From: Acidobacteriota bacterium
Lineage (GTDB): Bacteria; Actinomycetota; Acidimicrobiia; ATN3
Reading direction: 5' to 3'
DNA length: 35,484 nucleotides
NCBI GenBank assembly: GCA_003577105.1
Contig: QEUQ01000025.1
Location: 1 to 35,484, forward strand
The notes beneath the pieces are model-generated. The model saw nothing but the letters and a program-made list of their open reading frames with translations, ran no database searches and was not told the DNA's origin. Shown here piece after piece: positions 34,217-34,721 of the stretch (position 1 is the stretch's first letter; each line of letters opens with the position of its first letter). The translations under genes were made by a program, and so were the position numbers.

Positions 34217-34665
34217 TCAGCTGACCTCGAGAGTGCCGGTCATTCCGAGTTGCTTGTGGCCTGCTACCGAGCAATAGAACTCGTAGCGTCCCGCTTCGAC
34301 GCTGTATGGCTTTTTGACCGTTTGTCCGGCCGCGACGTTGAAGTGAATTCCGAGCTGATCGACTGTGAAGTCATGGATGATCTGCCCCTTGTTCTCAACA
34401 ACGAACGTCGCGGGCCCCGGTTTGGCTTCGATTTTCGATGGCGCAAATGAGTATTCCGTTGTCTTGATCGAGAACTCCTGGGTTCCCGGCGCAACGTCGG
34501 TCAGCTCGGGAGCGCCGCCGGCCGGGCCCGAGTGCCCTCCCATGTGTCCGTCTTCGCCCATTCCCCCCCCCCATCCATGGGTGAGTGATTGGCTGCTCCG
34601 CAGGCTCCGAGCGAGAGAACTCCGACGACGGTCGCAAGGACGAGGATCAGTCGAATTCGGTTCAC
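34217..34665 (-). CDS. Cupredoxin lipoprotein, frame broken at a run of ten G
   Basis: Two frames together make one blue-copper lipoprotein. From GTG 34665 (AAGGAG 5 bases upstream) the product starts NRIRLILVLATVVGVLSLGA followed by the lipobox Cys, then CGAANHSPMDGGG, and stops early at about 34501. The other frame carries a His-rich linker (EDGHMGGHSG) and a cupredoxin domain: EFSIKTTEYSFAPSKIEAKP, the first copper His in IIHDF, and Cys, His, Met in YCSVAGHKQLGM. They switch at ten G on the coding strand (plus 34563-34572); eight or eleven would join them. Phase variation, a decayed gene or a sequence error are all possible. The intact protein would be an exported electron carrier or copper binder. 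Confidence 0.75.
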
Positions 34666-34692
34666 GATGGCTCCTTGCTTGGGGCTGAGCAT

Positions 34693-34721
34693 TCAATATG
34701 CATTATGCAGTGGCGTGCCAA
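34693..34721 (-). promoter_or_regulatory. Predicted promoter of the cupredoxin gene
   Basis: On the minus strand TTGGCA (plus 34716-34721), 17 bases, TATTGA (plus 34693-34698), about 28 bases before the GTG start. The -35 is 5 of 6; the -10 is weak. Between here and the next gene (34873) nothing else is seen. Confidence 0.5.

Follow-up and report, generated by a model that had tools for sequence, protein, structure and literature searches.

A cupredoxin lipoprotein gene split at a ten-G tract, and candidate G/C-tract switches near the starts of genes for exported proteins in an uncultured actinobacterial genome

Structure of the cupredoxin locus

The window analyzed, 35,484 nucleotides in length, is the entire contig C104 of the draft genome G000, which consists of 2.87 Mb in 104 contigs and was judged 95% complete. 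Its minus strand includes two reading frames that, taken together, have the organization of a gene coding for a secreted cupredoxin lipoprotein (Table 1). The product of the first frame is VNRIRLILVLATVVGVLSLGACGAANHSPMDGGGEW...LPS, and its stop codon (34501-34503) is located beyond a tract of ten G, the only homopolymer longer than 7 bases in the whole window. The N-terminal portion of this product, VNRIRLILVLATVVGVLSLGAC, has a short positively charged start, then a stretch of hydrophobic residues, then the lipobox LGAC (…LSLGAC), and a few residues separate the lipobox cysteine from the tract. The second frame is open without break from upstream of the tract to its own stop codon, and its translation matches PF13473 (1.6e-10) and PF00127 (8.3e-6), both above the curated cut-off. 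The predicted cupredoxin fold and ligands are clear from the sequence, with the ligand positions of the alignment occupied by His, Cys, His, and Met, which are candidate copper ligands. Neither a plausible signal peptide nor a Shine-Dalgarno-led start of its own was found upstream in the domain frame. As assembled, the signal peptide and the domain are both present but out of frame with each other.

The original prediction for this locus had placed the signal peptide and lipobox in one frame and the complete copper-binding domain in another, with the switch at ten consecutive G, and had proposed that eight or eleven G would restore the protein. Translation and the Pfam matches bear out the two frames, the tract was found at exactly this point, and the arithmetic is also correct: lengths that are 2 modulo 3 join the frames and ten does not.

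Table 1. Features of the cupredoxin locus in the window and G/C tracts at the 5′ ends of other secreted-protein genes of G000.
Feature	Position	Strand	Description and basis
Shine-Dalgarno AAGGAG	34671..34676	-	5 nt ahead of the GTG start at 34665; sequence
Signal-frame ORF as assembled (candidate OFF product)	34501..34665	-	54 amino acids, GTG start; translation
Lipoprotein signal peptide up to the lipobox cysteine	34600..34665	-	Sequence and alignment (five relatives, two paralogs)
Ten-G tract	34563..34572	-	Site of frame change; sequence
Domain-frame part	34217..34561	-	Met/Gly/His-rich linker and complete cupredoxin, to stop at 34217-34219; sequence, Pfam, alignment
Cupredoxin domain	34223..34492	-	Union of PF13473 and PF00127 matches; Pfam, solved homologs (nitrite reductase and nitrosocyanin), alignment
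C10 tract, C42:1304	L090 1304-1313		MESRRTTTFLRRLVSTPIAAALILALAVVPADAKKHQSPPP then stop; DUF7948 protein of 1149 codons in the other frame
G8 tract, C42:17005	L090 17005-17012		MSRYAKSKHSTTVAAAAVFAVAL, frame change, then remaining signal and a DUF7948/PD40 homolog, open over at least 868 codons
G8 tract, C30:93348	L094 13349-13356		Start codon shares a frame with the n-region; the hydrophobic core lies in the other frame, open for at least 680 codons
C10 tract flanked by CT repeats, C95:497	L091 497-506		Between strong Shine-Dalgarno/ATG and secreted protein; probably split
G9 tract, C38:3568	L092 3568-3576		Occupies most of the spacer in TTGACG-16-TACATT, a promoter-like sequence ahead of a gene for a secreted PD40 protein

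Five relatives of the same class (L009, L010, L011, L012, and L015) have the signal peptide, lipobox, a variable linker, and the cupredoxin domain in a single frame, and alignment showed the same single-frame order in two intact G000 paralogs located on contigs C5 and C40. Since the intact relatives have all parts in one frame, we consider the signal half and the domain half as portions of one gene. Linkers of the same Met/Gly/His kind are found in L010 and L011. The four ligands are kept at this locus, in the five relatives, and in the C40 paralog; the C5 copy is devoid of the Met. The His...Cys..His..Met pattern is common to secreted single-domain cupredoxins (PF13473/PF00127), nitrosocyanin, and the cupredoxin domain of nitrite reductase, but identity to the secreted cupredoxins and solved relatives is only moderate and, unlike in them, the frame is here interrupted at the linker. 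From what is known of the family, a lipid-anchored protein with one cupredoxin domain and a Met/His-rich linker has a putative function in electron transfer or copper binding on the cell surface. No copper genes were recognized among the examined neighbors of the locus, and the viral contigs contained no additional copy of it.

The tract is not conserved in the aligned relatives, and the frameshift site is likewise absent from them. L012 has a longer glycine stretch at the tract position, encoded without any run of 6 or more, and GGG represents 22% of the glycine codons in the sampled genome. Therefore, the protein does not force the presence of the tract.

G/C tracts elsewhere in the genome

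Counting of matches to G7, G8, G9, and G10 across G000 resulted in 133 G/C runs of exactly 7 bases, 13 of 8, one of 9, three of 10, and none of 11 or more. All four runs of 9-10 bases, and two of the thirteen 8-mers, are located at the 5′ ends of genes for secreted proteins, the total of runs of at least 8 being 17. At four of these six 5′-end tracts, the signal peptide is cut off from a gene that otherwise remains open, for up to 1149 codons; the same probably holds for a fifth, and the sixth lies in a promoter-like spacer (Table 1). The exported-gene 5′ zones, about 5% of the sequence, thus contain 4/4 runs of at least 9 (5e-6) and 6/17 runs of at least 8 (1e-4), figures that are descriptive, resting on a rough gene call and a zone chosen after the loci were seen. 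An excess of long tracts by count was dropped as evidence because the number of ten-base runs is just marginally above extrapolation.

The direction in which the frames are out of phase differs among the loci, that of C42:1304 being opposite to those of C42:17005, C30, C95, and the cupredoxin gene. The C95 tract may instead be part of a 5′ UTR, because the n-region would otherwise span about 60 residues. The G9 of C38 is a candidate transcriptional switch; its promoter-like arrangement was found once, versus 0.1 expected from shuffles. The two split DUF7948 secreted proteins of contig C42 are homologous to each other. The C30 and C95 secreted proteins are partly similar and have no Pfam match, and both genes run off their contigs.

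The remaining eleven 8-mers are all in open frames, including those of genes that, by reading of their sequences, we take to be moeA, nuoG, sdhA, ribBA, and apgM. Among the seven-mers, about 75 of the 133 were examined: almost all of them keep the frame of a long ORF, a few fall between genes, and none was seen to split a gene. Two seven-mers at the 5′ ends of exported-protein genes, C5:15188 and C53:700, are both in frame and could be ON switches or simply stable.

Searches for MutS (PF01624, PF00488) and NucS (PF01939) in the 95% complete draft found neither, while the controls were detected; at this completeness, such a negative does not prove that the genes are missing. NucS was detected in 42 of 60 relatives, and the single genome of the same order, G001, had neither NucS nor MutS by the same searches. 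The Mycobacterium smegmatis NucS leaves indels of 1-2 bases unrepaired, which was linked by the authors of that study to homopolymer phase variation (PMC11551767).

Interpretation of the split genes

These observations suggest that the locus encodes a cupredoxin that is secreted and anchored to lipid, that its expression is probably subject to phase variation by slipped-strand changes, and that the consensus captured in the assembly is OFF. Replication slippage would lead to the gain or loss of a G in the tract, whose position is in the linker immediately past the lipobox. In one length class out of three, signal peptide and copper domain would be fused, and the protein would be exported and lipid-anchored (ON). 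The other two classes, ten G included, would stop translation early, after 54 residues in the case of ten G, and the cupredoxin domain would be left untranslated or unexported (OFF). Tract length would change within the population, in which ON and OFF cells would coexist, and the cupredoxin locus would belong to a limited group of switches that rely on G/C tracts near the starts of genes for exported proteins, in a genome in which neither MutS nor NucS was detected. Several characteristics of contingency genes are found here: a homopolymer of at least about 8 bases within the gene, a length change that would toggle an otherwise intact gene between joined and broken frames, and several loci with exported functions. 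On the other hand, each of the four tracts that clearly lie in coding sequence is in the OFF state, as against a chance expectation of one ON in three, the tract is not common to the relatives, and the number of long tracts barely exceeds extrapolation; these facts count against phase variation.

Phase variation, sequencing error, and a dead gene had been left undecided by the original prediction. The genome-wide context favors the first, while for single genes a recent death or a misassembled tract length could still apply. The real tract could be constant and in frame and the gene intact, the ten G being an error of sequencing or assembly, an explanation that we consider unlikely. Sequencing of long G runs is difficult, the two halves show no damage apart from the split, the genome offers no housekeeping control for runs of ten, and the cupredoxin gene is about 800 bases from the contig end. 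The assembly is less certain at four of the five genes that are split or probably so, because these genes or their neighborhoods are near contig ends, and the authors of the work on Bifidobacterium breve have warned that tract lengths in databases may deviate from the true ones (PMC9187656). However, runs of 7-8 bases elsewhere are in frame, and the out-of-frame 8-mers are 2/2 in signal peptides versus 0/11 in other places (Fisher p = 0.013). An error would not select secreted proteins, and the off direction varies by locus. Since an error is blind to gene type, the difference between housekeeping and secreted genes argues against it, but not against a tolerated loss.

Such a loss, by which slippage inactivated a gene that is now drifting as a fixed pseudogene, seems to us quite unlikely. 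The gene is out of frame as assembled, and its loss may be tolerated because the two paralogous cupredoxin lipoproteins of the genome are intact. However, the cupredoxin gene has no second lesion and keeps its ligands in the alignment, and the other split genes are still open over 1149, at least 868, and at least 680 codons. Because they stay open, several independent and very recent losses would be required, all of them at the longest runs.

It is improbable that the joined protein is produced from unchanged DNA, either by −1 ribosomal frameshifting at G_GGG_GGG or by RNA polymerase slippage. While the slippery heptamer at the cupredoxin tract sits in the correct frame for −1, and C42:17005, C30, and C95 require a shift in the same direction, C42:1304 requires the opposite one, relatives lack the site, and the structure behind the cupredoxin tract is no stronger than in shuffles (z 0.34). 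As compared to programmed −1 frameshifting, therefore, the heptamer is present but the stimulatory structure and the conservation in relatives are absent. Uniform programmed −1 frameshifting as a general mechanism was rejected on account of the direction at C42:1304 and the lack of structure. RNA polymerase slippage could contribute leaky expression. Finally, internal initiation, by which a cytoplasmic cupredoxin would be made in this length class from the ATG located in the domain frame one base past the tract with the G run as Shine-Dalgarno, is very improbable: the anti-Shine-Dalgarno can pair with G-rich sequence, but no such use is found in the relatives and a cytoplasmic copper protein of this cupredoxin kind would be unusual.

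Relation to known phase-variable systems

Phase variation by a tract behind a signal peptide belongs to a class of mechanism already known, the nearest precedent being probably in the same phylum. The B. breve genes bbr_0113 and bbr_1889, which code for sortase-dependent pilins, likewise have a short Sec-signal ORF, a G-tract, and the body of the surface protein in another frame, and their reference sequence is out of frame, as is the case here (PMC9187656). B. breve is a member of the Actinomycetota, as G000 appears to be. In that system mixed tract lengths were shown in one culture and the in-frame strains make pili (PMC9187656), whereas one consensus is known here, and the pilins are unrelated to the cupredoxin lipoprotein and the DUF7948/PD40 proteins. 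Cutibacterium (Propionibacterium) acnes also has G/C tracts in reading frames and upstream regions, including those of putative surface proteins and a −35/−10 spacer, but there the variable tracts are 54 across 90 genomes (PMC4746626), as opposed to six candidate loci in one genome. In Gardnerella, runs of at least 8 are similarly found at or upstream of surface-protein genes (PMC11287997); the tracts are far more numerous than here and include A/T, and one of them varied in vitro as determined by Sanger sequencing. That homopolymers acting as inactivation sites are biased to the 5′ side is a general idea, which has been published for A/T runs (PMC2831843).

In a more tentative generalization, this uncultured actinobacterial lineage, in which MutS and NucS were not detected, may keep a small G/C-tract phasome inside signal peptides that switches the export of a copper lipoprotein, large DUF7948/beta-propeller proteins, and further secreted proteins, beyond the host-associated species from which phasomes are best known. 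The lineage, perhaps within Acidimicrobiia, the gene set, and a cupredoxin among the genes proposed to switch are new; the best matches listed in the literature included no phase-variable cupredoxin and no phase variation in Acidimicrobiia. If true, signal-peptide phase variation reaches beyond host-associated Actinomycetota to an uncultured lineage without close sequenced relatives, and the tract lengths of the six named loci can be read from existing metagenomic reads. Annotation should be viewed with caution, as proteins of this kind get called truncated or unexported.

In the other genomes of the class, none of the sampled runs of at least 10 bases (mostly one locus per genome) was at a signal peptide; these runs correspond to contig ends, gap edges, and low-complexity or intergenic stretches. 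Pure poly-C of 40-118 bases is found at contig edges elsewhere (L063 1-118, L072 1-49, L075 1-48, and L083 1501-1540), and these edges are probably sequencer poly-G artifacts that remain in public assemblies.
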